This document shows positions 42,053-60,597 of a DNA stretch of 64,000 bases, one piece after another. The notes under the pieces were generated by a model, which searched no databases, had not been told where the DNA came from, and saw only the letters and a list, made by a program, of their open reading frames with translations. The DNA lies in NCBI RefSeq assembly GCF_041103235.1, contig NZ_JBGCUN010000004.1, forward strand, positions 1-64,000, in the 5' to 3' direction. The stretch's first letter is position 1; every line of letters begins with the position of its first letter. Origin of the DNA: Yoonia sp. R2331. GTDB taxonomy: Bacteria; Pseudomonadota; Alphaproteobacteria; Rhodobacterales; Rhodobacteraceae. Both the position numbers and the translations under genes were made by a program.

Positions 42053-42128
42053 TTTTGCCTCGCATTCCTTGTCAAATGAGACACTAGGGGAACCACCGAC
42101 GTCGGTCCATGGGTCAAAGGTGCTGATG

Positions 42129-42146
42129 CCTATCCCAACGGATAGG
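42129..42146. promoter_or_regulatory. EPS regulon box, perfect copy between wza-like and wzx-like genes
   Basis: CCTATCC-caac-GGATAGG is a perfect 7-bp inverted repeat with a 4-bp spacer in the divergent promoter region, so it could control both genes. Confidence 0.78.
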
Positions 42147-42246
42147 TTGTTGCCCATTTGCGCAAGACACCTGACCCAAGGCGTCCGAGACGCGGGGCGT
42201 CATAGGTTGTTAGACCAATCCTCGCAACAAGATTGGAACTGGCCTC

Positions 42247-43482: not shown

Positions 43483-43485
43483 ACC

Positions 43486-44409
43486 ATGACAAGCTTTTCA
43501 ATCATTATCCCATGTTTCAATGCAGCTGAGACGATCTTGGAAACGTTGTGCAGCCTCCAGGCCCAAACCGTCACAAACTGGGAAGCGGTTTGCGTTGATG
43601 ATGGGTCAACCGATGCAACGACCCGAATTATCGCCGCCGCCCGAGATGCGGACCCGCGTATCATTTTGACCCACAATACAAGCAAAGGCCCAAGTGCGGC
43701 GCGCAATCATGGCGCTCTGACGCTGGCAAAGGGTGAGATCATTGCATTCTGCGACGCTGACGACCTTTGGTCACCAAGCAAGCTGGCCGAACTGAATGCA
43801 GAATTTTCGGATCTTTTTGTCGATGCCGCATTTGGCAAAGTAGCCTTTTTTCGTGATCGACCTTCAGCAGTGACCGCCACGTCGACCGTTCCGTCCAAGC
43901 CGTTGCACATTCCGATGTTGCTGAGCGAAAACCCAGTTTGCACGATGTCGAACCTGTCCATCCGTCGTGCGATTTTTGAAAGATCAGGCGGATTTGATGA
44001 AACGCTGGTTCACAACGAGGACTTGGAATGGCTGGTTCGGCTCGTGGGGCAAGGCGCAAACGTCGTTGGGCTTCCGACTACTCAGACGTTTTATCGCGCC
44101 AGCCCTTATGGCCTTTCATCAGACCTGAAGGCGATGGAAGTTGGTCGCAAGGCTGTTCTTGAGACCGCAGCATCGTTTGGTTTCGAACCAGATGCTGCAT
44201 CAAACGCCGTCTATCAGCGTTACCTTGCCCGTCGCGCCTTGCGCCTCGGCCAGGGCCGCACACTGGCGTTGCGTTTTGCGTTGTCTGGACTTGCCATATG
44301 CCCAAGCGGCTTTTTCGCCTCACCCAAGCGCGGAGCTTTGACGTTGATCGGCGCATTATGTGCGTTTGTTCTTCCTACACCTGTTTGCCGAACTCTGTTT
44401 TCACGCTGA
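43486..44409 (+). CDS. GT2-family glycosyltransferase
   Basis: A 307-residue family 2 glycosyltransferase (GT-A fold). SIIIPCFNAAETILETL opens the domain; VCVDDGSTDATT is the nucleotide-binding block; AFCDADDLWSPSKL contains the DxD motif for the metal-sugar nucleotide; HNEDLEWLVRLV holds the acidic acceptor-site residues. It adds one sugar of the repeat unit; the donor is unknown. It lies directly after the flippase gene. Confidence 0.9.
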   Translation: MTSFSIIIPCFNAAETILETLCSLQAQTVTNWEAVCVDDGSTDATTRIIAAARDADPRIILTHNTSKGPSAARNHGALTLAKGEIIAFCDADDLWSPSKLAELNAEFSDLFVDAAFGKVAFFRDRPSAVTATSTVPSKPLHIPMLLSENPVCTMSNLSIRRAIFERSGGFDETLVHNEDLEWLVRLVGQGANVVGLPTTQTFYRASPYGLSSDLKAMEVGRKAVLETAASFGFEPDAASNAVYQRYLARRALRLGQGRTLALRFALSGLAICPSGFFASPKRGALTLIGALCAFVLPTPVCRTLFSR

Positions 44410-44426
44410 GTCAAAGGATCAATACT

Positions 44427-45407
44427 ATGCCATATGTTTCCATAATTGTGCCTGCTTACGATGTTGCCAGCACCCTGCCGGAAACGCTCGGCGCGTTGCT
44501 TGCGCAATCTTTCTCAGACTTTGAAGTTCTTGTCGTAGATGACGGTTCGACGGATGAGACAGCACGCATTGCTCACAGCTTCCAGAGCGATGATCGCGTC
44601 AAGCTGATTTCCCAACGCAACCGCGGTTTGGCCGGCGCCCGCAATTCCGGCATCGCGGCCGCCCGAGGTGGGCTGATCGCATTTTGCGATGCTGACGACA
44701 CCTGGGAACCTGAGAAGCTCGAAACCCATGTCCGGCATTTGCACGCAAACCCTGATATTGGGATCAGCTATGCCGGTTCGGCGATAATGGATGAAGGAAG
44801 TATCCAACTTGGGCGACATCAATCGCCGCGGTTGCGGGATATCCGGCCCGAACACATTTTCAAGCGCAATCCGATCGGCAACGGTTCGGCACCGGTGATG
44901 CGCCGCGCAGTGTTTGATGCCATCGCCTACCGGCCATCATTCGAAACCGAACGTGATTGGTATTTCGATGAGACATTTCGTCAGTCAGAAGACATCGAGT
45001 GTTGGCTACGCATAGCGTTGACCACGGACTGGTGCTTCGAAGGGGTTGACGGCCACCTCACAAACTATCGCATCAATGCCTCTGGACTCTCGGCTGATAC
45101 GGACCGTCAACTTGCATCGTGGGAGAACATGGTCTCAAAGCTGCGGCCGATTAACCCGACCTTCTTTGACGAACATGAGACAGCAGCACGGTCATATCAG
45201 TATCGCTATCTTGCGCGCCGGGCAGTGAGTGATTTTGACGGTGTACGGGCTTGGAATCTTACGCTGCAATCCCTGCACCAGTCGTTTCGCCCGGTTTTCG
45301 AAGAACCGATAAAAACAATCCAGACTGCGGTGGCGGCGGGGGCACTAAGACTTGTTGGGCCAAATGCTCTGCGTCCCTTCCTGGTGGCCAAGGGAGCGAA
45401 GTCATGA
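44427..45407 (+). CDS. GT2-family glycosyltransferase
   Basis: A 326-residue GT2 enzyme parallel to its upstream neighbour: YVSIIVPAYDVASTLPETLG, VLVVDDGSTDETARIA, AFCDADDTWEPEKLE and the acceptor block FRQSEDIECWLRIAL. It is a diverged relative, consistent with an old duplication. The ATG at 44427 is chosen because upstream in-frame codons overlap the previous gene. Its stop overlaps the next start as ATGA. Confidence 0.9.
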   Translation: MPYVSIIVPAYDVASTLPETLGALLAQSFSDFEVLVVDDGSTDETARIAHSFQSDDRVKLISQRNRGLAGARNSGIAAARGGLIAFCDADDTWEPEKLETHVRHLHANPDIGISYAGSAIMDEGSIQLGRHQSPRLRDIRPEHIFKRNPIGNGSAPVMRRAVFDAIAYRPSFETERDWYFDETFRQSEDIECWLRIALTTDWCFEGVDGHLTNYRINASGLSADTDRQLASWENMVSKLRPINPTFFDEHETAARSYQYRYLARRAVSDFDGVRAWNLTLQSLHQSFRPVFEEPIKTIQTAVAAGALRLVGPNALRPFLVAKGAKS

Positions 45408-46441
45408 CGCGTCCGATGAAAGTCGTCCACCTTGTTGATGACACGACTGCCGGGGGCATCACGCGGGTTGTCGATTTCATTTTGTCCGGCAATGGCAGGC
45501 AGACCGAGATCCAGCACGAACGTCAGGTTGCATCGCGAGGCAAACTTAACGCTACGCGCTACGAGGCAGATGTCATCGTATCACATCTGACGTTTTCCTG
45601 GCGAAACCTGCCGGCGCTCATTTTACTTCGGGCGTCGAATGCCGGGAAGCCAATGATCCATGTCGAACATAGCTACACTGAAGGATTTGTGGCCCATAAC
45701 GTGACCCATCAGCGCCGGTTCCTGACACTGCTCCGCACCGGCTTTTCCTTGTTCGACCAAATTGTGAGCGTGAGCTACGCGCAGGCAGATTGGTTTTCAG
45801 CAAAGAACCTGTGCGCCAGAAGTAAGGTTTCGACAATCCAGTCCTGCGTCGACCTTGCTCCGTTCCGCTCAATCCCGGCCACGGACGGTCCTGTCCGGAT
45901 ATTTGGTGCCATTGGTCGGCTTGATCGTCAAAAAGGTTTTGATGCGTTGATTGCGGCATTCAAGACATGCGAGGCGCGTGACATCGAACTTCACATTTTT
46001 GGGGAAGGCGAAGAGGAAGAAAATCTCCGTCAGCTCGCTGCAGGCGATCAAAGGATCGTCTTCAAAGGCTTTGCGGCCTCACCCACCGAAGCGTTCGCCA
46101 ATATTGACGCCGTTGTAATGCCTTCGCGCTGGGAAGCTTACGGCTTGGTCGCCATCGAAGCGATCAGTGCCGGTAAATTGTTGATCTGCTCGAATGTTGA
46201 CGGATTGCAGGACCATGAACCGCTCGGCGCTGAGTTTCTTGAGCAGTATTCAAAGAATTGTATAGCGTGCAAGATCCTGCAAGTTCGGTCGCGGGCAGGT
46301 AGCCCACTCAACGAATTGAACGCGAAATCCATTATCCTCGAAGAAACATTCTTTCTAAAATGGCGCCAACTGCTTTGTGCCAACTCGCATTTTTGGACCA
46401 GCGAATCTGGTGACAAAGGTCTCATGGCGGGTCGGACATGA
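45404..46441 (+). CDS. GT4-like glycosyltransferase
   Basis: A 345-residue glycosyltransferase of the GT-B fold. N-terminal MKVVHLVDDTTAGGITRVVDF is the acceptor loop; IFGAIGRLDRQKGFDALIAAF, then FKGFAASPTEAFANIDAVVMPSRWEAYGLVAIEAISAG is the donor-site half, with the E-x7-E-like pattern. After about residue 270 the expected C-terminal helix is replaced by a Cys- and Ser-rich tail that does not look like the family, ending beside an IS remnant. The tail may be the result of a frameshift; the enzyme may be damaged. Confidence 0.82.
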   Translation: MTRPMKVVHLVDDTTAGGITRVVDFILSGNGRQTEIQHERQVASRGKLNATRYEADVIVSHLTFSWRNLPALILLRASNAGKPMIHVEHSYTEGFVAHNVTHQRRFLTLLRTGFSLFDQIVSVSYAQADWFSAKNLCARSKVSTIQSCVDLAPFRSIPATDGPVRIFGAIGRLDRQKGFDALIAAFKTCEARDIELHIFGEGEEEENLRQLAAGDQRIVFKGFAASPTEAFANIDAVVMPSRWEAYGLVAIEAISAGKLLICSNVDGLQDHEPLGAEFLEQYSKNCIACKILQVRSRAGSPLNELNAKSIILEETFFLKWRQLLCANSHFWTSESGDKGLMAGRT

Positions 46442-46623
46442 CGCTCTCAGTCCCTCGGCATGCCCCCCATGATTGCCGCGAACCGGCTTTGGGCCGTCAA
46501 TCAAGGTTTAGTGAGGCTATTCACCAAACATCTCCACATTGATCCTTGACCCCTGCCATTCCTTCGCCATGCGGTCGATCATTGGGTTCCATCAGATTGG
46601 TGCCACCCAGTCGGAGCGCCGAG
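46442..46623. other. spacer before IS3 remnant
   Basis: 182 bp with no supported gene. A 26-codon frame from 46468 looks like an orphan tail. This is probably part of the disrupted end of the polysaccharide cluster. Confidence 0.4.
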
Positions 46624-47050
46624 TGGTATCCGGTTCTATGGCAAACCGGCTAGCATTGTCAGTGACAACAGGACGGAGTTCACCAGTCGCGCGATCCTGA
46701 AATGGGCCAACGAAAACGGCGTTGAGTGGCATTGCATCGATCCTGGCAAGCCCCAGCAGAACGCCTTCATCGAAAGCTTCAACGGTAGCTTGCGCGACGA
46801 ACTCTTGAACGAGGAGATGTTCGACAGCCTAGACGATGCAAGACGCAAACTCGCCCTATGGCGATACGATTACAACAACGTCAAGCCCGCACTCGTCGCT
46901 CGACAACAAAACACCCGCAGAAGCGCGCCGAGCGCTTGAACAATTTGAGGGCTCCGCGCCCGCCGCGCTTGCCCAAACTGACAACAAAGAATATGAAAAC
47001 CAGACCCGCAGACTCTCGTTTTGAATGAGGGAGCCTCGGGGGGCAGGTCA
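46624..47050 (+). mobile_element. truncated IS3-family element (3' end)
   Basis: The 3' part of orfB of the same element found complete at 54691-55946, on the opposite strand. It begins near the codons for RFYG, contains SDNRTEF and [17 protein letters not shown], is frameshifted near 46890, and ends with the terminal inverted repeat ...GGGGGGCAGGTCA at 47050. The first ~830 bp of the element are missing. A few single-base differences separate the copies. Confidence 0.9.
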
Positions 47051-47052
47051 CA

Positions 47053-47245
47053 ATTGCCTACACACTCATCGAGACCGCCAAGCTCAACAAGGTTGATCCG
47101 CAGGCGTGGCTAACATGGGTCCTCGCCCAAATCACTGACCACAAGATCACGCGCCTCGACGAGCTCACACCTTGGCATTGTGCTGCTCGAGCAGCATAAC
47201 AGCGACAGTAGACGTCGCACCAAAGCGCCTTCACCGGACGGGCAC
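47053..47245 (+). mobile_element. IS66-family remnant (end of transposase gene)
   Basis: Bases 47053-47199 encode [20 protein letters not shown] and [19 protein letters not shown], the conserved C-terminus of IS66 TnpC, ending in a stop. CACCGGACGG-type sequence at about 47232 resembles the IS66 terminal repeat. Only the end of the element survives, abutting the IS3 remnant. Confidence 0.8.
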
Positions 47246-47333
47246 TCTCTTGTCCAATTCCATCGACGTAATTCCGCGCTGTCGAAAACCGAAGTCGCCA
47301 TCGGTACTGGCGCTGCGCTGCGAGGCATAGAAT

Positions 47334-47528
47334 ATGATTGAGAATGACATTCTGAGCGAAGTTGAAGCTCAAGCCATCAGACAGCTAGATATGCTCTGTC
47401 CGGACACCGAAATTACTCTTCAGGAAGCCATGGAGCAGGCCGGTTCGGCCCTTCATCAGCATGGCTTTCGAAGGGGGCTGGTTTTGATTGAGGGACAAGT
47501 GGATGATCATGGCCACCAAGCCGAATGA
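47334..47528 (+). CDS. small hypothetical protein
   Basis: A 64-residue acidic protein (MIENDILSEVEAQAIRQLDM, LCPDTEITLQEAMEQAG). Mostly helical, no known domain. GAGG lies 8 bases before the ATG. Related in style, not clearly in sequence, to the other small proteins of this island. Confidence 0.5.
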   Translation: MIENDILSEVEAQAIRQLDMLCPDTEITLQEAMEQAGSALHQHGFRRGLVLIEGQVDDHGHQAE

Positions 47529-47708
47529 TCAGCGTCGGTTTCTTGAATCTGATCCGACAATACCCTCCCCATAAAAAGCGGGTTGAGCAACTACCAAGCC
47601 GGTATGCATCCTTGTTCCCATTGGCTAGAGGACGCAATCAAGGTGTTTGCTTGTTTGATACGGCCAAGTCCTCAAGAGCGCTCAGGTAGGGCAGTGCAGG
47701 GAGGAGAT

Positions 47709-47978
47709 ATGCCACTAGAATATTCGATAAACTTCCTAGGATTTGAACAAGAGAACGTAGAGAGTGGAGATGTTTTGACTCGCGACGGTGAACATCTTGG
47801 CAAATGGGTATACGGCGAGCAATACGGTATGGAATGGTACTACTTTATCCCGAACGGGATGGAACGTCCCACACTGTCGGATCACCACCTCAGCTTCCTG
47901 CTGGCGCTGATTACAGAATGGCATAAATCGCGGAACCGGGTCACCAACAAACGATTAGCTACTACAACGTCGACTTAA
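47709..47978 (+). CDS. small hypothetical protein
   Basis: An 89-residue protein with beta-rich, Trp/Tyr-containing sequence (FLGFEQENVESGD, GKWVYGEQYGMEWYYFIPNG). The ATG at 47709 follows GGGAGGAGAT, a strong ribosome binding site, and is preferred over upstream frame extension. No recognized family. Confidence 0.6.
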   Translation: MPLEYSINFLGFEQENVESGDVLTRDGEHLGKWVYGEQYGMEWYYFIPNGMERPTLSDHHLSFLLALITEWHKSRNRVTNKRLATTTST

Positions 47979-48304
47979 ACATCCACAGCCCGCTACAAAA
48001 GCATGTTCGGAGCGAAAGAACTCAAACCATAGACGCACCGTCAGCGCCACCCCCAACTAAAGCGAGTTGCAGACCATTTGGGGTGAATGCGATACTCTTG
48101 GCCCAGCGTTGGGTGAATCGCTCGATCCGAATGCGCTTTGATGCGGCTGCGACCTTGTTTATGAATTCAAATGCGAACGGGTCCGCTTTTCTGCTCCACT
48201 ATTCGGGCGTAACGTTCGACTTGTTTACGGTCTGTTAACCAATTCTTCTGTCAACATGTAACTACTGCTTTCTGGAACTAGAAAACCATTTGCTGGGGAA
48301 GATA
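47979..48304. other. gene-free spacer with CtrA-like half box
   Basis: About 326 bp with no gene I can support. It ends with TTAACC at 48235-48240, 65 bp before the next small gene, and the conserved leader block CTGGAAC-TAGA shared with 51416. Confidence 0.45.
48235..48240 (+). promoter_or_regulatory. CtrA-like half box
   Basis: TTAACC, 65-70 bp before the ATG at 48305. It corresponds in position to TTAACT before the paralog at 51416. Confidence 0.45.
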
Positions 48305-48484
48305 ATGCACGAACACCGATGGATTGTTGGTATACTTGAAGATATTGTCAGGTACGCCGAAGATAACAAACTCGACAGGCTGAACGATACGATCAGGGAG
48401 GCGAGAACAGTCGCGATTCAAGAAGTTGGATATCCCATACATCGAACCTTTTCCGCTAAGCCAAAACTGTCTTTGGTGAAGTAG
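48305..48484 (+). CDS. small paralog A1
   Basis: A 59-residue charged helical protein (WIVGILEDIVRYAEDNKLDR, LNDTIREARTVAIQEVG) and a clear paralog of the 60-residue protein at 51416. Both are preceded by the same CTGGAACTAGA...TTGCTGGGGAAGAT leader giving GGGGA as ribosome binding site. Function unknown; possibly a small helical adaptor. Neighbours: the broken A-B module partner at 48636. Confidence 0.7.
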   Translation: MHEHRWIVGILEDIVRYAEDNKLDRLNDTIREARTVAIQEVGYPIHRTFSAKPKLSLVK

Positions 48485-48583
48485 ATCCTTCCGAAATCGA
48501 CTTGTCCATTCAGGCGAGGCTCAGCTGTAGATTGCACTTTGGCGTCGGCAAATTTTGCCAAGTTAAACTTTGGCTATCCAATG

Positions 48584-48590
48584 TTAACCT
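48584..48590 (+). promoter_or_regulatory. CtrA-like half box before B1 remnant
   Basis: TTAACCT with another TTAA at 48563-48566, 46 bp before the ATG at 48636, the same distance as the intact box before the paralog at 51758. Confidence 0.5.
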
Positions 48591-48635
48591 AGCCTGACGT
48601 AAGCGTCTAAAGACATAATTTGGGGAGTGCACAGA

Positions 48636-48769
48636 ATGGAAAAAGAGCTGCTAAGCGTTTTGGCTTCGTAGGACTTGAGGCCGCGCTTTATGAGGTTGCG
48701 ACCACGCTAAACGACCAACATTTCCTTAGCAGCGAATCTGCTAAGGAGACCAGGCTGAAAGACGCGTAG
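48636..48769 (+). pseudogene. broken small paralog B1
   Basis: It starts MEKELL like the intact 59-residue paralog at 51758 but then stops after 11 codons. An internal deletion of about 31 bp shifts the frame; from AAGCG onward the other frame again matches the paralog (GLEAALYEVATTLND versus GLEQALYQVAATLNE). So this is a decayed copy. Confidence 0.75.
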
Positions 48770-48862
48770 ACCTACCGCTACTTCCAAATGGGGCATCGAA
48801 ACGTTGAACAAAACGCAACTTGTGAGCCGTTGCATTTCGTCTTCCCCGTTCCTTCGGGTCAA

Positions 48863-48896
48863 TCCTCCCGTAGCAGATCCAAAATCTTTGGGAGGA
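48863..48896 (+). promoter_or_regulatory. possible ribosome-site-hiding hairpin
   Basis: TCCTCCC (48863-48869) is perfectly complementary to GGGAGGA (48890-48896), which is the ribosome binding site of the TTG-started gene at 48904. Pairing would hide it, so translation may be structure-controlled. Confidence 0.5.
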
Positions 48897-48903
48897 GGCC
48901 AAA

Positions 48904-49107
48904 TTGGAACGAATTTCGAGGGTGATTTCAGCATCGCTGGATTATTCTGAAGACGGAAATCTGCAGCGAGCTGCGTCTGCTGGCGAAATGTCAAGCGAAG
49001 ACTTTGGGATATTTTCTGAACTCCGCCTCGTGGAGGTGGATGAAGAAGGGTCGAAGGTGAACCTCACAAGCCTAGGAAAATTCGTGATGAGTTTCTTGGG
49101 TCGATAG
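48904..49107 (+). CDS. small hypothetical protein, TTG start
   Basis: A 67-residue protein (MERISRVISASLDYSEDGNL, then FGIFSELRLVEVDEEGSKVN). TTG start preceded by the very strong GGGAGGAGG at a good distance, which also lies in a predicted hairpin. No domain recognized. It belongs to the small-gene island. Confidence 0.5.
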   Translation: MERISRVISASLDYSEDGNLQRAASAGEMSSEDFGIFSELRLVEVDEEGSKVNLTSLGKFVMSFLGR

Positions 49108-49119
49108 AGTGAAACTGAC

Positions 49120-49211
49120 TCGCGGGGCTGCCCACCAACTGCGAAGCAAGTTGACTGTGTGAGGGTGTGCGTGCGATGATGGCGACAAGGAATTTGGAAC
49201 AAATTGGTTAA
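49120..49211 (-). ncRNA. candidate small RNA element, copy 1
   Basis: This shares with 52020-52112 the layout (minus strand): TTAACCAATTT, then ACACCCTCACACAG and a hairpin. TTAACC on the minus strand (49211-49206) could be a CtrA-like promoter box. The hairpin (CAACT...AGTTG) is weaker than in copy 2 and lacks a T tract. Orientation uncertain. Confidence 0.35.
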
Positions 49212-49254
49212 CAAAAGGCAAAAAGCAGTTGGAGAGCTTTACCAAGTAGCCTTG

Positions 49255-50145
49255 CTAGACCGCCTTAGAAACTACCCTATTTCGACCAGCTCTCTTTGCG
49301 TCATAAAGCAACTCGTCCGCCCGCTTCAGAACCTCTGCGCCCGCAGTCGAAGCTGATGACAACCCTGCCAGTCCAACACTTGCTGTAATTCCAATCTGAT
49401 GTCCACTTGCAAAAATGATCGTTGACTCAAGTTCTTGGAGTAAACGAATACACGCAATCTCTGCGCTTTTGACTTTGGTTTCAGGAAAAATGACGGCAAA
49501 CTCCTCACCGCCTAGTCGCCCTACCATGTCGATGGTGCGGAACTGATTGATGAGTTTGCCTGATACCGCGCGCAACACCTGATCGCCTGCATCGTGGCCA
49601 TAGGTATCATTCACCGCTTTGAAGTGGTCGATGTCTATCATGGCAACAGCAAAATGATGCTTGAATCTTTTTGCGCGAGCGAACTCGGCCTCCAATCTTC
49701 CCAAGAACGGTCGGCGATTGGGCAATTCGGTCAAAGGATCCGTATCTGCTTCCTTTTGCAGGATCTCATAAGCTGTGGTCAGCTCCCGGATACTCACCAT
49801 ATCGATCAAACTTTGCTCAACAATTACAGGGATATGGCGGATGGAATTTGCATTCATCAGGCGAAGTATGGCGGCAATCTCATCATCCGGGCCGCAAGTG
49901 ATGACATTCGGAGACATCACCTTAGCAACAACTGTGTTGGCTGGAAGCGCTTTTATGTTGGCGACAACAGGTAGCAAATCACGTTCGGATACAATCCCCA
50001 CCAGTTTCCCTGCCGCATCGCAGACAACAAGTGCTCCAATGCGTAGTTCCATCAACTTGGTTGCCACCTCACTCAAAGTCGAAGTTGGCGACACCTTTTC
50101 AACACTATTAGTCGACTTCTCAGCCAGAAGTTTCGCTATCTTCAT
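49255..50145 (-). CDS. CBS-GGDEF diguanylate cyclase
   Basis: A 296-residue cyclic-di-GMP synthase. Residues ~15-130 are a CBS pair (SERDLLPVV, MSPNVITCGPDDEI, SIRHIPVIV). The GGDEF domain follows: DPLTELPNRRPFLGRLEAE and GRLGGEEFAVIFP at about 212, which is the active GGEEF variant. RTID five residues upstream is a canonical I-site, so product inhibition is likely. The CBS pair may sense adenine nucleotides. It lies convergent with the small-gene module, consistent with a surface-attachment circuit, but no effector is seen. Confidence 0.93.
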   Translation of the reverse strand: MKIAKLLAEKSTNSVEKVSPTSTLSEVATKLMELRIGALVVCDAAGKLVGIVSERDLLPVVANIKALPANTVVAKVMSPNVITCGPDDEIAAILRLMNANSIRHIPVIVEQSLIDMVSIRELTTAYEILQKEADTDPLTELPNRRPFLGRLEAEFARAKRFKHHFAVAMIDIDHFKAVNDTYGHDAGDQVLRAVSGKLINQFRTIDMVGRLGGEEFAVIFPETKVKSAEIACIRLLQELESTIIFASGHQIGITASVGLAGLSSASTAGAEVLKRADELLYDAKRAGRNRVVSKAV

Positions 50146-50178
50146 GCCATGCCTTTAAGCTGCGTCTCTGGGCAAAGC

Positions 50179-50397
50179 ATGTCGAAACCAAATGAATCCT
50201 TTGTGAAGAAGTTCGATGATGGCCCGGTTACAGTGGGGCATGTGGAGACAGAGCCTGAATGGCAAACGACTCTACTCTCGATTTCACACCGGCTAATCGG
50301 AGATAGGCCGTTCACGAAACTATCGGAGGACGTGCCGGTACTTAGTTTTGCCGTTTCTATCCAGCACTTCAGCAAAACAAGAATGCGACGCCTGTGA
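50179..50397 (+). CDS. questionable small frame
   Basis: A plus-strand frame (from the ATG at 50179: MSKPNESFVKKFDDGPVTVG) with reasonable amino-acid composition. It overlaps the minus-strand gene at 50320-50751 and lacks a good ribosome binding site. The minus-strand gene has a paralog, so at least the overlapping part is more likely coding on that strand. Confidence 0.25.
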   Translation: MSKPNESFVKKFDDGPVTVGHVETEPEWQTTLLSISHRLIGDRPFTKLSEDVPVLSFAVSIQHFSKTRMRRL

Positions 50398-50751
50398 TGT
50401 GTTGATGACTCTTGGTTTCCCCCCCACTGCCACTCCTATCACTCTAAATAGAACCTTGTTCGCTGCTTCCTCTGTACAATCCATCAGCAAGATTGTGATG
50501 TGTGTGGGCGCAACCGCCAATACTGAATCCGTCTTGCGAACAAGGGAGCGGATCAGACTTACCGAAAGCCCCATACAGGTAAGTCCATAGGCGCTAGAAG
50601 CTTCAGTTTCGTCCCTTTGAGTATCCGTCATCCTGAACGATATCGAGCAGTATCTTTGTCGCTTTCGCTTAAGCTGCCAAGTCATCATCTTGTACGAGAA
50701 CGAGTTGAATAGGTGATTCGTCATACTTGATGCATTCCGACTGTCAGACAT
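50320..50751 (-). CDS. degenerate GGDEF-like protein (D1)
   Basis: A 143-residue protein whose second half, SLIRSLVRKTDSVLAV...ITILLMDCTEEAANKVLFRV, has the spacing of a GGDEF domain (R..D.v, then hydrophobic-iLL.d...e.A..v..R) but lacks the GG(D/E)EF residues, so it cannot be a cyclase. A paralogous stretch exists at 53941-54153. The N-terminal 60 residues are low in recognizable pattern. It might be a regulatory remnant of c-di-GMP signalling. Start at 50751 is a choice; another ATG lies 9 bp upstream. Confidence 0.5.
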   Translation of the reverse strand: MSDSRNASSMTNHLFNSFSYKMMTWQLKRKRQRYCSISFRMTDTQRDETEASSAYGLTCMGLSVSLIRSLVRKTDSVLAVAPTHITILLMDCTEEAANKVLFRVIGVAVGGKPRVINTSQASHSCFAEVLDRNGKTKYRHVLR

Positions 50752-51415
50752 GATCCCCAACTAGCTAGGTTCGGGTTTTCAAATCGCCGAATTCTTCGAA
50801 CGTGCTCCCAAAAGGGTTCAACATAAAACTACTAATAAACAGTTCAATTATTCGCGGTTACTGGACAGTCCAAGGGCATCCTTCGCCACTGAATCTTTCA
50901 CAAAGCCCAACGGACAAGCGATACCTCGAAGTTGTCACACAGTCTGACCAAGCAAAAAATCGCAAGTGTAAGCTATTTGAATTGCCTTCGCTGGCGATTT
51001 CATCCGAGTGTGGGACCGCAAAGTAGTCGGCAAACGGTCAGCGACCCCACTGCTCTCGGTGGGAGAAAGTATTTTGACGATATCATACTGGGCGGGTTCG
51101 TTCTACCTCTAGGAGTTCAACCGCTCAGGTGCCAGAGTGCTTCGGGCCAGCGGGCCCCCCCCCAAAAATGGCCAGTTGTAGAATCCCTTTCAATCGGCAT
51201 ACTCCCAACCCTCGACGGACTTGCCATGCCTATAGGCGGAACCCTCTCGATCAAATCCGCTGATGAGTGCTTGAACGACCACTCTTGCAGCCTGCAATCG
51301 AAGGCTGAACACAGTACGTAAGGTCCGCTCGGTATGTTTACGATTCCTTAACTATGAGACCGGTCAAAATACAAATCAACTTGCTGGAACTAGATAACCT
51401 TTGCTGGGGAAGATG
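50752..51415. other. gene-free spacer with CtrA-like box
   Basis: About 660 bp with frames that look like noise. It contains a run of C residues near 51166 and the TTAACTAT box at 51348-51355, with the leader shared with 48305. Confidence 0.45.
51348..51352 (+). promoter_or_regulatory. CtrA-like half box
   Basis: TTAAC(TAT), 64 bp before the A2 gene start at 51416. Confidence 0.4.
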
Positions 51416-51598
51416 ATGCAAAACCACGGATGGATTGTTAGCATTCTTGAAGATGTTGCTTGTTACGCCGAGAAGAACAAACTGGAAAAGCTTGAGGAGA
51501 CATTGCGAGAGGCGCAAGCTGTCGCTGCCATCGAAACGGGCTGCGAAACTACCATCTATCAACGGTCAAAACGGGCCAACCTTCACGTCGTGAAGTAG
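51416..51598 (+). CDS. small paralog A2
   Basis: A 60-residue protein, paralog of A1 (WIVSILEDVACYAEKNKLEK, LEETLREAQAVAAIETG). By homology the ATG at 51416 is the start; the ATG one codon earlier lacks a counterpart in A1. It is the first gene of the intact A-B module, with the second gene at 51758. Function unknown. Confidence 0.72.
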   Translation: MQNHGWIVSILEDVACYAEKNKLEKLEETLREAQAVAAIETGCETTIYQRSKRANLHVVK

Positions 51599-51696
51599 GC
51601 GCACAAAGTGGAATGCTGCCCATTTGGCGGGCATGAAGTTTTGTGTGTCCACCAAATAGGCAGAATTCTGCCGCATCTACTAACAGATCCTTGAGT

Positions 51697-51713
51697 TTAA
51701 CTCCTCGTTAACC
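51697..51713 (+). promoter_or_regulatory. full CtrA-like box before B2
   Basis: TTAA-N7-TTAACC, the complete CtrA-type consensus arrangement, 45 bp before the ATG at 51758. CtrA is the conserved alphaproteobacterial cell-cycle regulator. Confidence 0.65.
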
Positions 51714-51757
51714 TTCCCTAATTACGCCTTCCGTTGACGTAAATTGGGGAAAATGTC

Positions 51758-51937
51758 ATGGAAAAAGAACTTCTGCACCTACGATTGGTTGATGCGATCA
51801 TGATGGCGAAGCGCTCAGGCTTTGATGGACTTGAGCAGGCACTTTATCAGGTTGCAGCGACGCTGAACGAGGACACCCTTTGGAGCGACCGCCCAAACTT
51901 GGTTGATCAAGACAAGTCTTTCAAACCGGTCAGATAA
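51758..51937 (+). CDS. small paralog B2 (intact)
   Basis: A 59-residue protein (MEKELLHLRLVDAIMMAKRSG, GLEQALYQVAATLNEDTLWS as short segments). It has a full CtrA-like box upstream and an intact reading frame, unlike its counterpart at 48636. Helical, charged, of unknown function. It is downstream of A2 and separated by the box, so it may be independently transcribed. Confidence 0.7.
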   Translation: MEKELLHLRLVDAIMMAKRSGFDGLEQALYQVAATLNEDTLWSDRPNLVDQDKSFKPVR

Positions 51938-52299
51938 GTACGTAGAGCGGGCGATAACTCACAACTTGCGAAAATGCCGTGCCGAGCGGTTTTCGGGAGC
52001 CATACCACAAGGTCATGATTGGAAAAGAAATGCCCACTCGCCAGTGAGCGAGTGGGCTGTGTGAGGGTGTATCGCGAGGGTTGCGATGCATCGACCATGA
52101 GGAAAATTGGTTATTAAAGAATGAAGGGATGGCACAGCCTCACTAAATCGACATGCAATCTAGGATTTGTAGACTGCTTGTTTCGTTCTTATCTCTACGA
52201 GATACTATGCACTCTGCCCTGTAAGCTGACTGAACGGGCTAGCCAAACTGGGGCGGAACACAATTGTTCACGGAGTGATCGATTGGCGCGGAATGGACC
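51938..52299. other. spacer with candidate small RNA
   Basis: About 360 bp between B2 and the AerR-like gene. It contains the candidate small RNA at 52020-52112; the remaining ~190 bp before the AerR-like gene hold no clear CtrA box and no TGT-N12-ACA PpsR-type site that I could find. Confidence 0.45.
52020..52112 (-). ncRNA. candidate small RNA element, copy 2
   Basis: On the minus strand, TTTAATAACCAATTT is followed by ACACCCTCACACAG and then CCCACTCGC/GCGAGTGGG with a 6-nt loop, ending in a T-rich tail (CATTTCTTTT). This looks like an intrinsic terminator and marks the 3' end of a short transcript. The block ACACCCTCACACAG is identical to copy 1. A tiny peptide cannot be excluded. Confidence 0.45.
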
Positions 52300-53082
52300 T
52301 TGACGAGTTTTACTGGTGTTCGAAGACGGGAAGAATGTGATGAAACATTCGACTGGACGGTGCGAGGTGTTCAAGATGTTGCGTCTTTCCTCGGTGCTTC
52401 CGATCCCTATTCCGGGGCAGCGGCCTCGCTGGACGATATGACTTGTGCGTTTTTGTCAGCCCTGCGTTCTCGAGACATCTCAAAAGCTTGCGAACTCGGT
52501 AACATCTCGGACAATTGGCCAGCCTTGGCATTGGGAGCCATTGCACATCTCGATAAAGCATGGAGCGATGACACGCTTACAATCGGGGAGATTGCGGAAA
52601 CCTACTGGACATTGCGCAGGACGCTGGACGAACTGACCTCATCCCAAGCACGAGCGGCCCAATCATCACTCTTCATTGGCACGGCCATCATATGGATACC
52701 AAAGACCGAACAGCACACTTTTGGGCCTCAAATGCTCGTCGACAACATCAGACGTTTTGGGTGGGACGCACATCTTTGGCACGACTTCAGTTCAGACGAT
52801 TTGATTGAGAAAATTGGGTCTCACGACATAGATGTTATCGGTGTCTCGATTGGTACGGACAATCAGTTGGATGGTTTGGCAGACTTAGTCACACAGATCA
52901 GGCGGTCTGCCATAAACCCCAACATCAAGATTTTAGTCGGCGGCAGCGCTATTCATGGATCCCCAAACCTCTATAGCTTCTTGGGTGCCGATGCCGTTTC
53001 AGCTTCGGCAGATGATGCAATGGACTTCTTCGAACGAGGTTGGACGGAGTCGGAACGTAGAGAAGGCCGGTTTGATGGGTGA
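52300..53082 (+). CDS. B12-binding-domain protein (AerR/PpaA-like)
   Basis: A 260-residue cytoplasmic protein. Residues 1-115 are helical, as in AerR/PpaA antirepressors; residues ~122-250 form a B12-binding-like Rossmann domain (LFIGTAIIWIPKTEQHTFG, IDVIGVSIGTDNQLDGLADL, KILVGGSAIHGSPNL). The DxHxxG cobalamin motif appears as E137-x-H139-x-x-G142, so the axial His is kept. AerR-type proteins bind cobalamin and block a PpsR/CrtJ repressor, and the next gene is PpsR-like. TTG start at 52300 is likely; no good ATG exists in frame. It overlaps the next gene by 8 bp. Confidence 0.8.
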   Translation: MTSFTGVRRREECDETFDWTVRGVQDVASFLGASDPYSGAAASLDDMTCAFLSALRSRDISKACELGNISDNWPALALGAIAHLDKAWSDDTLTIGEIAETYWTLRRTLDELTSSQARAAQSSLFIGTAIIWIPKTEQHTFGPQMLVDNIRRFGWDAHLWHDFSSDDLIEKIGSHDIDVIGVSIGTDNQLDGLADLVTQIRRSAINPNIKILVGGSAIHGSPNLYSFLGADAVSASADDAMDFFERGWTESERREGRFDG

Positions 53083-53749
53083 TGCGCCGATTGATGGGTC
53101 GGGAAAAAACCCTTGGAGCGGTTACGACGCCGCCGCGCTTTTGGCGTCTAGTGGCGATGTCAGCATCCTGTTGTCGGAGCGTATCGAAGTTCTGGACGTT
53201 GTGGTGCCAGAAAAGAAGAAGTTCGACTTTGATCTCCGAACGAAATGGTGCGGACGGGGGCTTGTGGACATCGTGGCCAAGGACAGCGCCGTCAAGATAC
53301 CGTCACTGCTAGGACTCGACGCAACACCGTCAGTTGCAAGTGACCGGTGGCGACATCTTAACTTCATGGTGGAAAGTGATTCCGAGATCCCTCTCCTCGC
53401 CAAGAGTTTTCGAGTTCAAGCAACATTTGGACCCGTCCATCAAATCGTTTGTAGAGACCTCCGACCAATGACGGAGTTGAATGCACGATGGCAAGCCGAG
53501 AACGAAAAGCTCCTCAAACAGATTGCGCGTGAACCTGCGCCATCGGCAGAACAATTTAGCGCATCTGCGAGCGCATTGGTCGGGGCGGCACCTCTCGCAG
53601 ACATTATGGCAGCAGCTGCCGATGAGGTGGCGAGAATCTGCATTGCTGAAGCGCTCCGCTCCTGCCGTGGCGATGAATTCGCCGCCGCTGAGTTATTGGG
53701 GATCACTCGCTTAGAGCTCAGGCGGAGGAAAAGAGCCTCACTACATTGA
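53075..53749 (+). CDS. mini-PpsR/CrtJ-like regulator (PAS-Fis HTH)
   Basis: A 224-residue DNA-binding regulator. Residues ~20-135 match the first PAS domain of PpsR: GRGLVDIVAKDSAVKIPSLL, then RWRHLNFMVESDSEIPLLAKSF and IVCRDLRPMTELNARWQ. A helical linker and a Fis-type HTH follow (ICIAEALRSCRGDEFAAAEL, LLGITRLELRRRK). Full PpsR (~470 residues) has two PAS domains plus an N-domain; these are missing here. Cys189 is where the redox-active HTH Cys of PpsR/CrtJ lies, and Cys197 is nearby. The ATG overlaps the AerR-like stop by 8 bp. No photosynthesis genes are in the window, so its targets differ from the classical ones. Confidence 0.8.
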   Translation: MGDAPIDGSGKNPWSGYDAAALLASSGDVSILLSERIEVLDVVVPEKKKFDFDLRTKWCGRGLVDIVAKDSAVKIPSLLGLDATPSVASDRWRHLNFMVESDSEIPLLAKSFRVQATFGPVHQIVCRDLRPMTELNARWQAENEKLLKQIAREPAPSAEQFSASASALVGAAPLADIMAAAADEVARICIAEALRSCRGDEFAAAELLGITRLELRRRKRASLH

Positions 53750-53829
53750 TGGCGCTCGAGACAGTCTCAGGGAATGTTCTCTCAGATGCGAATTCGACAT
53801 TCGATCTCAGCTGTAGACCCAATGCTGTG

Positions 53830-53868
53830 CCTTCAATCCACTCGCTCACTCGGCGAGTGGATTGAAGG
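53830..53868. terminator. 16-bp perfect hairpin between convergent genes
   Basis: CCTTCAATCCACTCGC (53830-53845) is the exact inverse of GCGAGTGGATTGAAGG (53853-53868), with a 7-nt loop. It lies 80 bp after the PpsR-like stop and before the convergent D2 fragment. Its core (CCACTCGC...GCGAGTGG) resembles the hairpin at 52030. A bidirectional terminator or a structured RNA. Confidence 0.6.
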
Positions 53869-53940
53869 TGAATTTCGAGAGGATCGGCACGCCAATCGTA
53901 CCAAATTGAATATATTAACGTTGTCCTTCCCAACTCTTAA

Positions 53941-54153
53941 TCAGTACGGTGGTTGAACTTGTTTGGCAAAACTTGCGTCGGAAAAAAATCTTCTGATAAC
54001 GTGTTGATCGGCGTCCTTTTCTCCACCAATTCGCACTTCGGCAGAGCAAGTGAGTGTTGCCAGCGAACCGCTGACGACCTGGACCTCATTCCCAATCGAC
54101 TCGCGGATGACCCTATCAAGGACCATCTTGGCTCGTTCGCCGCAACAATCCAT
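53941..54153 (-). pseudogene. degenerate GGDEF-like fragment (D2)
   Basis: A 70-residue frame (LMDCCGERAKMVLDRVIRES, then LATLTCSAEVRIGGEKDAD) parallels D1's ILLMDCTEEAANKVLFRV region. The preceding in-frame sequence IVILL and upstream coding-like sequence (about 54172-54275) are separated by a TAA, suggesting a nonsense mutation in a once longer gene. It is more likely a remnant than a functional gene. Confidence 0.5.
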
Positions 54154-54285
54154 TAGAAGAATGACGATTTAACGTAATTGACCAACTTTACGTTGGGTAA
54201 TGCACACGGTTTCCTTAGGCGCTTCAGGTACTTGGATCTCGGGCGACAAAGTAATCGAGAAACGGTCGCGATTGTTAGGCTCTCA

Positions 54286-54295
54286 TTAACCTTAA
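54286..54295 (+). promoter_or_regulatory. CtrA-like box before C1
   Basis: TTAACCTTAA, 40 bp before the ATG at 54336. The identical sequence stands before its paralog at 56700. Confidence 0.5.
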
Positions 54296-54335
54296 GCGAC
54301 AAACGTTCAAGGATCACACAACTTGGGGTAGTGTC

Positions 54336-54545
54336 ATGTTAAGCTCAAAGAATGCTCTGGAGAGAGCTCAAACTGTTGCACAAAAATACTTGGGCGACTG
54401 TCAAAATCTAACTGAGGACCAACTGATTGGTAGAATTGAAGACAAGGGCTACGCACTGGCAAGGCGGGGACAAGCTGCCGAGGCGAACTTTCTTTTCGTG
54501 GCCGTATCAGACCTTGAGCTGGCGAGAAAAAGAGACTGCCAGTAA
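54336..54545 (+). CDS. small paralog C1
   Basis: A 69-residue helical protein (RAQTVAQKYLGDCQNL, LIGRIEDKGYALARRGQ, FLFVAVSDLELA). It is a paralog of C2 at 56503: both keep LIG-x(1)-E/I-x-K-x-Y-x-LAR and LFVAVSDL/ADL. Unknown function. The ATG is preceded by a CtrA-like box and a purine-rich stretch. Confidence 0.68.
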   Translation: MLSSKNALERAQTVAQKYLGDCQNLTEDQLIGRIEDKGYALARRGQAAEANFLFVAVSDLELARKRDCQ

Positions 54546-54717
54546 CGCTCGCCTTAGTTTCTGAGGGAGACAAAGCGTCGGTTGTGCCAACTCTTGGCCC
54601 TCTTCATCGACGACGAAGCCAAACTCTTTTTCGGGCTAAACCACTTTAGCTCTCCCGTTGCTACAATGGAAGAATTCGGTTCGTCTACTGTGACCTGCCC
54701 CCCCGAGGCTCCCTCAT

Positions 54718-55576
54718 TCAAAACGAGAGTCTGCGGGTCTGGTTTTCATATTCTTTGTTGTCAGTTTGGGCAAGCGCGGCGGGCGCGGAGCCCTCAAATT
54801 GTTCAAGCGCTCGGCGCGCTTCTGCGGGTGTTTTGTTGTCGAGCGACGAGAGCGGCCTGACGTTGTTGTAATCGTATCGCCATAGGGCGAGTTTGCGTCT
54901 TGCATCGTCTAGGCTGTCGAACATCTCCTCGTTCAGGAGTTCGTCGCGCAAGCTACCGTTGAAGCTCTCGAAGAAGGCGTTCTGCTGGGGTTTGCCAGGA
55001 TCAATGTAATGCCACTCAACGCCGTTTTCGTTGGCCCATTTCAGGATCGCGCGACTGTTGAACTCCGTCCTGTTGTCACTGACAATGCTAGCCGGTTCGC
55101 CATAGAACCGGATAAGTGCATCCAGTTCCCGTGCCACCCGTGCGCCCGAGACGGCTGGTGTCAGCCATCAGGCACAGGTTTTCCCGGCAGCAATCATCAT
55201 TCACGGCCAGAATGCGGAACCGGCGAGATGCGCCGAACGTTTCAGACAAGAAGTCTAGCGACCATCGTTCTCCGGGCCGCAGCGCTTCTGGCATCGGTGT
55301 TCGTGACCCACGTGCCCGCTTCCTCCCCCATCGTCGCCTGACGCCCAGTTTCTCTTCTGTGTTCAGGCGATACAATTTCTTGTGGTTCATCACATATCCT
55401 TCGCGCTCAAGCATGATCCCGATCCGGCGATAGCCAAACCTGCGCCGCTTATTTGCGATCTTCTTCATCTCTTTGCGGATCTTCGGATTGTCAGGCGGAC
55501 GGTCGCACCTGACGGTTTTTGGATCGACACCAACCAGCCTGCACGCCCGCCATTGCGAGATGGCATGATCTCGCAT
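54718..55576 (-). pseudogene. IS3-family transposase OrfB, frameshifted
   Basis: The integrase part of the transposase, in two frames: the upstream part (RRFGYRRIGIMLEREG, LDFLSETFGASRRFRILAVND) reaches the catalytic region, and from 55137 the other frame continues [21 protein letters not shown] and ends NQTRRLSF. A single extra base near 55155 separates them. DNRTEF replaces the usual DNGTEF at the second catalytic Asp. Inactive as it stands. Confidence 0.85.
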
Positions 55577-55878: not shown

Positions 55879-56074
55879 TCGTTTGCTCCTTCAAAAGGTT
55901 GAGCAAACTCTACATTAAAGTCCAGGAGGTTGCGGGGGGCAGGTCAGATCGCGTAGCGAACAAGCAGTGCGACGCTAACTAGACTTCGGTCCGAATTTAT
56001 AGGTGCTTGTCTAAGTGTGCTATGCGTCCGGTTTCTACCATTTGCTGTTAACAGCCGGTGGGATTCATTTTTCA

Positions 56075-56080
56075 TTAACT
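56075..56080 (+). promoter_or_regulatory. CtrA-like half box before the membrane protein gene
   Basis: TTAACT, with another TTAACA at 56048-56053, 42 bp before the ATG at 56122. Confidence 0.4.
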
Positions 56081-56121
56081 AGTGACCTGCAGACTATTGA
56101 GATCCACTCGGGAGAACCCTG

Positions 56122-56367
56122 ATGATAGCTATCTTTTACGGTCTAGTCGCGACAGCAACGACGCTTGCGATGTACTTGATATATGGTCTGAATGCGGGTC
56201 AATTGGTGGCGGTATACTATGGGTCGGCAGCAGTTTGCGGGCTAGTGCTCCAAGGTATAGCTAGCTTCAACAGCCGACGAACTCACCAACCAGAAGAGTT
56301 ACTCAACGATCCCGAAACTCGATACGAAGTATTCGATGGAGTGATCCTTCTGACGCCAGAACAGTAG
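56122..56367 (+). CDS. small membrane protein
   Basis: An 81-residue protein with two hydrophobic segments (about residues 3-24 and 30-50) and an acidic tail (EELLNDPETRYEVFDGVILL). Inner-membrane location likely. The ATG follows GGGAGAACCCTG. It is next to the C-type small genes and has a CtrA-like half box. Function unknown. Confidence 0.65.
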   Translation: MIAIFYGLVATATTLAMYLIYGLNAGQLVAVYYGSAAVCGLVLQGIASFNSRRTHQPEELLNDPETRYEVFDGVILLTPEQ

Positions 56368-56502
56368 CTATTGATAGAAACGTTGGACTCGTTGTGTCTT
56401 GCTCCACAATTTGATCCTTCGCAACTCCTACATTGAAAGAGCGATTTGGATCAGCCTAGCTATTACAGCTAACAAGGCACTTCAAAGAACAGAAAAGCAA
56501 AT

Positions 56503-56700
56503 CTAGGTGGAAATCTGAAGGTCAGCTACGGCAACAAACAGCCTCTTCGCTGAGCCGAAATCCCCTTCTCGGGCAAGTTGGTAGGCCTTTTTCTCTAGCT
56601 CGCCGATCAACGACACATCCGATGCCTCTTTCGGCCAATCATTCATGTACTTCGCGACCACCTGCATAGCGAGGTGGCGCCTGTGTGCGCTAGTTTGCAT
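56503..56700 (-). CDS. small paralog C2
   Basis: A 65-residue protein, paralog of C1 at 54336 (AMQVVAKYMNDWPKEASDVS, LIGELEKKAYQLAREGD, RLFVAVADLQIS). On the minus strand. TTAACCTTAA (TTAAGGTTAA on its own strand) stands 46 bp upstream at 56746-56755. Unknown function. Confidence 0.68.
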   Translation of the reverse strand: MQTSAHRRHLAMQVVAKYMNDWPKEASDVSLIGELEKKAYQLAREGDFGSAKRLFVAVADLQIST

Positions 56701-57182
56701 GTCTTTGTTTCCAGCAAGACACCCCCCCTACGTCTTTCTGGTCCCTTAACCTTAATATAATGTTACTAACATTCTCCGGTCATGATGAGTGATGGAACAG
56801 CCGATCAGGGACAAGCAATGTCCGCTTTGGAGAAGCTGCACTGCAGCGAGAACTAGCGAGCTGAATGGCAAGTTGGGGCCGTCCTAAACGACGCCTTACT
56901 CCGCAAGTGTTGAGATGCTGCGCTTCCTCCAAGGTCGGCAGAGAGCCCACAGCGGAAGTAATGATTCCTCGCTGCGCGCGCACGCAGCACGGAAATTGCT
57001 GCGGGCACTTGGATTTTGGCGCGCGAATGCGGCGGTGAAACCGGCCATTTATCCGGGCTACTACTAAGTTTGGAGCACAAACCCACGGGCGGCAGATCAG
57101 TTGCAATCAGATTTGCGAGTAGCATTCCGACGTCAGCGCGGTGCTGATGCTTGGGTTTGGAGGGCGGCAAGGAGGGCAAATC
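56701..57182. other. gene-free spacer before recombinase
   Basis: About 480 bp with no supported gene. It contains the TTAACCTTAA box at 56746-56755 belonging to C2. The rest looks like noise, and an attachment site for the recombinase was not identified. Confidence 0.4.
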
Positions 57183-59715: not shown

Positions 59716-59865
59716 CGGGCATTCCACTTTCGTTTGTTCTATTCCGACGAGGTTGGGTCTTGATCGCCCTAAACTCACAAAGAGTTTGGTACTCTGCACT
59801 GATCGAAAGCAGTCTCAACGCCGAACTAATCCTGAAGCATGCGCCCGGTTCGGGAGGGACCGAAA

Positions 59866-60597
59866 ATGAACATCAAAGCCAGTCCACTCACCCAAAAGCT
59901 TTCTGCGTTCGTTGCACTGTCGGAGACTGAGCTGACCGTTCTAGAGCGTTTGCATGAGCGTAGGAAATATTTCTCGGCAGGCCGCGACCTGGTTCACCAA
60001 GGCCAATCCGAGCAGGCTGCCTACATCCTGGCGGCGGGCTGGGTCGTTTCCTACAAGATCCAGCCTGACGGGTCGCGGCAGATTGTTGATTTCCAGATAC
60101 CGGGGGATTTTCTGGGGCTGCGCAGCGTCCTTTTGCACACATCTGATCATGGGATTGAGCCAATCGTCGAGATCGAAGCTGCGGAAGTTCTGGTGAGCGA
60201 TCTTCTGCGAGCCTTTGCAGAGACACCCCGGCTGGCCACAGCCATTCTCTGGGCCGTGTCGCGGGATGAGGCGATGGTGGTCGAACATCTGGTTGGGCTG
60301 GGTCGGCGCGACGCGGATGCGCGCATGGCGCATTTCCTGCTAGAGCTGGGCGTCAGACTGTCCCTCGTCGGTATGGGAAGCAGGCTGGGCTATCCCTGTC
60401 CGCTCACACAGTATCATCTGGGGGATGCGTTGGGGTTGAGCGCCATCCACGTCAACCGCGTCCTTCGTAAACTCCGCGAAAGCGGGCTCGTCACGTTTCA
60501 GGGCGGTCTTGTCACGTTCGATGACTACGAGGGGCTGGTTGCATTGGCGGATTTCGATCCGGCCTACCTCGATCAGTCGCGGCCTTTGTTGCCGTGA
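59866..60597 (+). CDS. Crp/Fnr-family transcriptional regulator
   Basis: A 243-residue regulator. Residues ~20-130 form a cyclic-nucleotide-binding-type beta roll (RRKYFSAGRDLVHQGQSEQ, FQIPGDFLGLRSVLL). The C-terminal winged helix (LTQYHLGDALGLSAIHVNRV, LRKLRESGLVTF) binds DNA. No Fnr-type cysteine cluster is visible, so oxygen sensing through an iron-sulfur cluster is unlikely. The ATG at 59866 is preferred; one at 59839 is possible. Target genes unknown. A GC-rich hairpin follows at 60603. Confidence 0.9.
   Translation: MNIKASPLTQKLSAFVALSETELTVLERLHERRKYFSAGRDLVHQGQSEQAAYILAAGWVVSYKIQPDGSRQIVDFQIPGDFLGLRSVLLHTSDHGIEPIVEIEAAEVLVSDLLRAFAETPRLATAILWAVSRDEAMVVEHLVGLGRRDADARMAHFLLELGVRLSLVGMGSRLGYPCPLTQYHLGDALGLSAIHVNRVLRKLRESGLVTFQGGLVTFDDYEGLVALADFDPAYLDQSRPLLP

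Follow-up and report, generated by a model that had tools for sequence, protein, structure and literature searches.

In purple bacteria the textbook switch for light and oxygen consists of the repressor PpsR/CrtJ and its antirepressors. The N-domain and the Q-linker of PpsR mediate dimerisation, the four-helix bundle of the antirepressor AppA docks on the Q-linker (PMC3949515; PMC9144470), and PAS2 is required for PpsR tetramers (PMC3949515). For the B12-binding antirepressors, the accessible part of PMC9144470 describes how Trp94 of SAerR covers the upper face of cobalamin and His145 serves as the lower cobalt ligand, how light makes a His of the N-terminal tail of LAerR the upper cobalt ligand, and how the SCHIC domain of AppA is marked by a replaced cap Trp and a long beta3-alpha3 loop. 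In two-hybrid experiments with proteins of Dinoroseobacter shibae the contact between PpaA and PpsR requires cobalamin, according to PMC10890935. LdaP of the same roseobacter is an accessory light-dependent PpsR modulator and in this resembles the module proposed below, but it is a LOV/FMN protein and hence another kind of sensor than a B12 protein. A second PpsR-type protein per cell is likewise found in Rhodopseudomonas and Bradyrhizobium (PpsR1/PpsR2), of which the accessible text of PMC6899989 speaks as two PpsR proteins with no mention of a truncation. No published description of a PpsR without PAS1 and PAS2 was found in the open literature searched.

Here we analyzed a pair of overlapping genes in a window of 64,000 nucleotides (the whole stretch of Yoonia sp. 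R2331 DNA under study), of which the first encodes a PpaA/AerR-like protein and the second a short PpsR-type protein, called mini-PpsR below. The features of the pair are as follows.

52256 to 52269 (L001 1457-1470), plus strand: inverted repeat GAACA-N4-TGTTC, 5' of the pair, given as a lead only.
52300 to 53082, plus strand: gene of the B12-binding PpaA/AerR-like sensor, 260 aa, TTG start (Pfam PF02310, 2e-12).
52336 to 52338, plus strand: Cys13 in the N-terminal C-x(2,5)-W of the B12 protein (motif count).
52561 to 52563, plus strand: Trp88 of the B12 protein, equivalent to Trp94 of SAerR (alignment, 38/38 rows).
52714 to 52716, plus strand: His139 of the B12 protein, equivalent of the lower cobalt ligand His145 of SAerR (38/38 rows).
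53075 to 53082, plus strand: overlap of the two genes, 8 bp.
53075 to 53749, plus strand: gene of the mini-PpsR, 224 aa (TIGR02040 2e-18, below the cut-off; profile against PDB PpsR 4e-12).
53138 to 53452, plus strand: PpsR-type, PAS-like N-domain, mini-PpsR residues 22-126 (TIGR02040, PDB profile, alignment).
53453 to 53524, plus strand: first half of the Q-linker, with a predicted end near the PpsR hinge (alignment).
53576 to 53671, plus strand: HTH helices A+B (identity 0.75-0.91; the best conserved part in 4/5 within-clade pairs).
53639 to 53641, plus strand: Cys189 at the redox-Cys position of PpsR/CrtJ (kept in 7/7 minis and 32/32 PpsRs).
53705 to 53737, plus strand: diverged recognition helix, TRLELRRRKRA vs SRQSLYVKLRK (alignment).

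The preliminary description of this DNA had named the first product an AerR/PpaA-like protein with a B12-binding motif E137-x-H139-x-x-G142 and had reported the overlap of 8 bp. Both frames and the overlap are present, which suggests translational coupling, the motif reads E137-Q-H139-T-F-G142, and the family assignment is upheld by the Pfam B12-binding match and by AerR as the top PDB match. With the single sequence the best PDB chain was AerR 7te2 (E 1e-4), and a profile built from four partners, as we call the B12 proteins whose genes adjoin a mini-PpsR gene, again placed 7te2 first (5e-16), with 8j2y at 1e-9, the SCHIC domain of AppA at 4e-9 and CarH at 1e-6. The AlphaFold model (pLDDT 63.6) retrieved B12 proteins and photoreceptors in Foldseek, photocobilin being first, CarH among them and AerR at rank 21, with TM values of about 0.3.

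The partners resemble PpaA/AerR (7TE2) in the four-helix cap followed by a Rossmann B12 domain, in the lower-ligand His, the cap Trp and the Gly motif, and in being paired with a PpsR-type gene (6/6 adjoin a mini-PpsR); His139, Gly142 and Trp88 are conserved throughout an alignment of the six partners with 32 AerR/PpaA proteins (38/38 rows). They differ from PpaA/AerR in forming a separate clade, in the second cap aromatic, which is Phe in 31/32 of the other AerR/PpaA and is replaced in five of the six partners (Ile, Ile, Phe, Asp, Asp, Asp), and in an N-terminal C-x(2,5)-W at residues 12-16, found in 6/6 partners and ahead of the B12 domain in 0/32 of the others. This motif was counted over the first 60 residues of the partners and over all residues up to 75 before HxxG in the others, independently of the MAFFT alignment, in which the N-terminal Cys is in register for 3/6 partners. 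The SCHIC domain of AppA (4HH3 with PpsR) has a related fold and docks on the Q-linker of PpsR, whereas the partners are without BLUF, show no insertion corresponding to the long beta3-alpha3 loop (six partners) and keep the cap Trp (6/6). Because of the kept Trp and the missing SCHIC-type loop, cobalamin is likelier than haem as the cofactor of the partners. None of them carries an N-terminal upper-ligand His of the LAerR His10 type; the first 60 residues hold no His at all in 3/6 partners, the one of the window included, and each of the other three has just one there, at 21 or 45. The N-terminal Cys of the partners is, as we infer from the motif, a candidate for the upper cobalt ligand of the light state.

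The second product had been presented as a regulator with one PpsR-type PAS domain and a Fis-type HTH bearing Cys189 at the redox position, and both domain claims proved sound, the profile searches relating the protein to PpsR/CrtJ and not to another family. Against the NCBIfam PpsR-CrtJ profile TIGR02040 the mini-PpsR scores 66.7 bits (2e-18), where the family cut-off is 275.4, in two stretches that cover profile positions 1-113 (N-domain) and 365-433 (HTH) in the genome search; four homologous minis score 53.8-64.7 bits and the own full-length PpsR 424.5. A profile from five mini homologues matched the solved PpsR structures 4hh3 (4e-12) and 4hh2 (8e-12) from the N-domain into the beginning of the Q-linker, and for this reason the PAS-type N-domain is considered real; a single-sequence PDB search, which gave chance matches only, is superseded by this profile. 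PAS1 and PAS2 are missing from 7/7 minis in the alignment, the Pfam scan gave no PAS match in P0002, and a weak PAS_4 match in the mini P0009 (residues 24-111) lies inside the N-domain. It follows from the TIGR02040 and PDB profile matches that the mini-PpsR is a PpsR minus PAS1 and PAS2, of which the Q-linker helix would end near the hinge at residues 142-146 described in the accessible part of PMC3949515. The AlphaFold model, made from two sequences, has a pLDDT of 43 and supports no claim.

The minis thus share with PpsR/CrtJ (TIGR02040; 4HH2/4HH3) the N-domain, the start of the Q-linker and the Fis-type HTH with its redox Cys, as well as the position of the gene next to one of ppaA/aerR type. 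They differ in length (222-244 aa vs 469 in the own PpsR and 473-555 for the open frames of the other 31 aligned), in the absence of PAS1 and PAS2, in profile scores far under the family cut-off and in the loss of the recognition helix SRQSLYVKLRK in 7/7.

Homologues were searched in the genus and in wider draws of genomes. Within the genus the mini form is present in 3/6 genomes, namely the own, one of the same species and the congener G003. A contig scan with the single protein, whose E-values are valid for the candidate stretches only, returned the same species (L004), a MAG contig labelled Erythrobacter (L005) and two weak Winogradskyella matches (24-25% identity). The L005 mini is 66% identical to that of the window and has the B12 gene and the 8-bp overlap likewise; no full PpsR over the cut-off was found in this MAG (Erythrobacter bin), and the contig is possibly a misbinned one from Rhodobacteraceae. 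The G003 mini is 57% identical and is without a B12 gene beside it. A supposed remnant of that gene 5' of the G003 mini (KDQFDG and then a stop, vs EGRFDG in the window) was rejected as too short, tblastn having found no longer one. In Roseinatronobacter sp. S2 the pair is situated on a 613-kb plasmid beside hemA-puhE-acsF-puhCBA, with the mini annotated as a hypothetical protein, and in the genus g183 it occurs in 3/7 genomes (G187, G402, G403), directly downstream of bchO in 3/3, the order in G187 being bchI-bchD-bchO and then the pair. The full-length PpsRs of Roseinatronobacter and g183 are 44-45% identical, vs at least 73% within g183, and on this ground the two count here as separate genera. 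Synteny in other genomes, the absence of which had been named beforehand as a finding against the pair, is therefore seen in L005, in Roseinatronobacter sp. S2 and in three g183 genomes, and the pairing is a real unit: a B12 gene adjoins 6/7 minis, with tight junctions (overlaps of 8, 8 and 4 bp; gaps of 3, 3 and 2 nt).

In a draw of 394 genomes from the family at least 166 matched at 1e-8, and among the matches listed all lie in frames of 470-751 aa besides the minis of G000, G001 and G187 and one partial match in a 68-aa frame of G301. A draw of 385 genomes from the class gave 13 matched genomes at 1e-16, the 12 besides the window's own having frames of 480-596 aa, and among 293 relatives of G187 there were 7 at 1e-17, of which 3 are minis, all in g183. 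Within the draws made, the mini form looks confined to few Rhodobacteraceae; since in the family and class searches no more than the 7-9 best candidates of each genome are scored, rare minis may be missed.

In one tree a single branch (100/99) separates the 7 minis from the 32 full PpsRs, and in the other a single branch (100/99) separates the 6 partners from the 32 other AerR/PpaA; both trees came with a long-branch warning. The subgroups are the same in both, which are the window with L005 (and G003 in the case of the mini), G187 with G402 and G403, and Roseinatronobacter. Between the window and L005 dN/dS is 0.18 for the mini and 0.23 for the B12 gene, between G187 and G402 it is 0.13 and 0.12, and for the minis of G187 and G403 it is 0.36; in comparisons against G003 the synonymous sites are saturated. 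The pair could be read as the functionless leftover of a decaying ppaA-ppsR copy, which would agree with the vanished PAS1, PAS2 and recognition helix, with IS-like ORFs seen nearby by eye and with the G003 mini that has no adjacent partner gene. We consider this hardly probable at all, since the frames are open in 7/7 minis and 6/6 partners and form one group each, since the values of 0.12-0.23 for both genes in the closest pairs denote purifying selection, and since the Cys and the motif WRH[LV]N are kept in every mini. The pair is real and conserved, and it is probably functional.

The loss of the DNA-reading helix, which changes what mechanism is likeliest, escaped the preliminary description. 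The recognition helix SRQSLYVKLRK is near-invariant across the 32 full-length PpsRs, which comprise the own one and 31 from the best-scoring loci and are not a random draw, and in 496 pairs of full-length PpsRs it averages 0.91-1.00 in every divergence band. At its 11 near-invariant positions 20/77 cells survive in the 7 minis, and the kept fraction in the other four regions (N-domain, Q-linker, helices A+B, helix C) is 0.44-0.49. Q454, S455, Y457, V458 and the N-N-R that precedes the helix are found in 0/7 minis, and the redox Cys and WRH[LV]N in 7/7. In six hosts that bear a mini the full PpsR has SRQSLYVKLRK (6/6), so it is the mini that changed and not the host lineage. Conservation is inverted also among the minis themselves: in five within-clade pairs (55-71% identical overall) the recognition helix reaches 0.27-0.55 and helices A+B 0.75-0.91, the former being the lowest of five segments in 4/5 pairs and the latter the highest in 4/5. 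The exception is the window vs G003, with helix C at 0.83 above A+B at 0.81 and the N-domain at 0.54 below the recognition helix at 0.55; the pair G187/G402 is near-identical and hence uninformative in this respect. The HTH_8 score is 46 bits in the own PpsR vs 18-25 in five minis scanned.

What is left of the HTH permits a reading in which the mini-PpsR is an independent regulator that binds DNA sites of its own through an Arg-rich helix, with the B12 protein as its antirepressor and with targets outside the PpsR regulon. The last helix of the window clade is Arg-rich, with ELRRR in 3/3 minis, and that of G403 is basic too, so that some form of contact with DNA is conceivable; HTH_8 exceeds the gathering score of 22 bits in P0002, P0006 and P0007 (23.5-24.9 bits), and the plasmid location and the inverted repeat 5' of the pair are also in keeping with such a regulator. 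However, this helix is variable within clades and helices A+B are far less so, it is net acidic in the minis of G187, G402 and Roseinatronobacter (18.1 and 19.1 bits, below the gathering score, in the two of them scanned), the homologous pairs lie in or beside photosynthesis clusters, and the repeat GAACA-N4-TGTTC occurs among 77 loci only in the window's own species. An independent regulator is in our view unlikely, though still credible.

The retained N-domain and half Q-linker would suit a decoy as well, in which the mini-PpsR soaks up PpaA/AerR-type proteins via the Q-linker helix and repression by PpsR becomes stronger, the amount that is free being set by its own B12 protein. The Q-linker docking residues are partly retained in the minis of g183 and Roseinatronobacter. 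A decoy leaves unexplained why HTH helices A+B and the Cys are the best-kept part in 4/5 within-clade pairs, and we find it quite improbable.

The reading that we prefer, with a confidence just short of even, is that the two genes form a coupled module derived from PpaA/AerR and PpsR/CrtJ which acts via mixed oligomers with full-length PpsR. The B12 protein would sense light and/or the B12 state through a His-ligated cobalamin and would dock on the mini-PpsR at its N-domain/Q-linker helix, in the way the related domain of AppA does on PpsR. For pairing, the mini-PpsR would still have the N-domain, the helix of the Q-linker and the first helices of the HTH, redox Cys included, but it would no longer read the PpsR DNA site. 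Most probably it would join the cell's own full-length PpsR in mixed oligomers, and light, redox state or B12 would in this way relax or adjust the repression of the photosynthesis genes. Action through full-length PpsR is favoured because the parts for pairing and docking, and the Cys, are retained in the mini and those for tetramers and DNA reading are gone, and because the own genome and 5/6 other mini-bearing genomes or records also encode a full PpsR that exceeds the cut-off. Counterpoints to the mixed oligomers are that the pair is plasmid-borne and outside the own photosynthesis cluster, that the G003 mini has no partner beside it, that the L005 MAG shows no full PpsR over the cut-off and that the window clade has lost the Gln and Glu of the Q-linker which PpsR uses with PAS2 and which the g183 minis keep. 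Id-type inhibitors are the comparison system for a repressor paralogue without DNA reading. A fuller proposal would make the mini-PpsR their counterpart, a DNA-blind paralogue with intact pairing surfaces and redox Cys that forms inactive mixed oligomers with the full repressor, under a B12 photoreceptor whose upper cobalt ligand in the light is a Cys and not a His, the whole serving as one switch of photosynthesis genes for light, redox and B12; in this complete form we hold it to be unlikely.

The surroundings of the pair had been described earlier as a plasmid with small CtrA-boxed genes, a CBS-GGDEF cyclase, IS debris and no photosynthesis genes. A ParA-like ATPase gene and repC in the window, on a contig of 109,844 bp, confirm the plasmid, Pfam confirms the cyclase, and transposase-like ORFs were recognised by eye. 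A single TTAA-N7-TTAA site, which we take to be a CtrA-type box, is present at 51697-51711, 5' of a small gene, as the sole one in the window (0.08 expected). None of the 29 window proteins run against Pfam is a photosynthesis protein, as had been claimed for the window, but the own genome has a photosynthesis cluster on contig C3, with puhE, acsF, bchL, bchH, bchB and bchN, that includes the full-length PpsR and a PpaA-type gene just before it. The window pair is therefore an extra pair and not a replacement of the classical ppaA-ppsR. The suggestion of a reduced light, redox or B12 switch for other targets keeps its first part, the reduced PpsR and the pairing, and loses strength in the second, given the own cluster and the bchO and puh neighbours of the homologues. 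Since related pairs lie in or beside the photosynthesis clusters of other species, the pair may be a previously unrecognised controller of photosynthesis genes.

A second compact pair that is conserved in at least three genera, and in two of these lies in or beside the photosynthesis cluster, would give the switch a further level of control so far unrecognised. A natural PpsR fragment made of the N-domain, half of the Q-linker and the first HTH helices also offers a direct test of how a B12 sensor acts on PpsR; for LAerR and for complexes of CrtJ/DNA/AerR crystallisation failed, as PMC9144470 reports.

Some minor observations were made in the window and in related loci. The PpsR-type sites TGT-N12-ACA number 13 in the window vs 8.8 expected, with none at 41493-55158, and a promoter and terminator scan at the pair stayed at chance level. 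A third AerR-like protein of the own genome is encoded on contig C1 (G000:C1:1762833-1763318; L002 1459-2292, minus strand), on which no PpsR match was found. It groups with homologues of G003, G187, G402 and a Sulfitobacter plasmid (99/97), on which the gene lies near chlG and a geranylgeranyl reductase gene, and the proteins of this third type in G187 and G402 miss the second Gly of the GG motif. The corresponding place of the G003 locus has the same spacing of the TTAA site (TTAACCCCCAGTTAA), and window positions 56025-56881 are 89% identical to a stretch of that locus. Families of proteins of 64-74 aa surround the pair (window 51401-51598, 48290-48484 and 48904-49107; L027 8127-8324 and 8800-9024), no family over the cut-off being found by Pfam for eight small proteins (6 of the window, 2 of L027), and look-alikes judged by eye adjoin the mini-PpsR in G003. 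Similar proteins of 65-69 aa, again judged by eye, are encoded at 54336-54545 and 56503-56700 on opposite strands, on either side of the IS-like ORFs. A regulator with GAF and Fis-type HTH domains (20924-21955) adjoins an aldehyde dehydrogenase gene, and a CRP/FNR-type regulator is encoded at 59839-60597, about 6 kb 3' of the pair.
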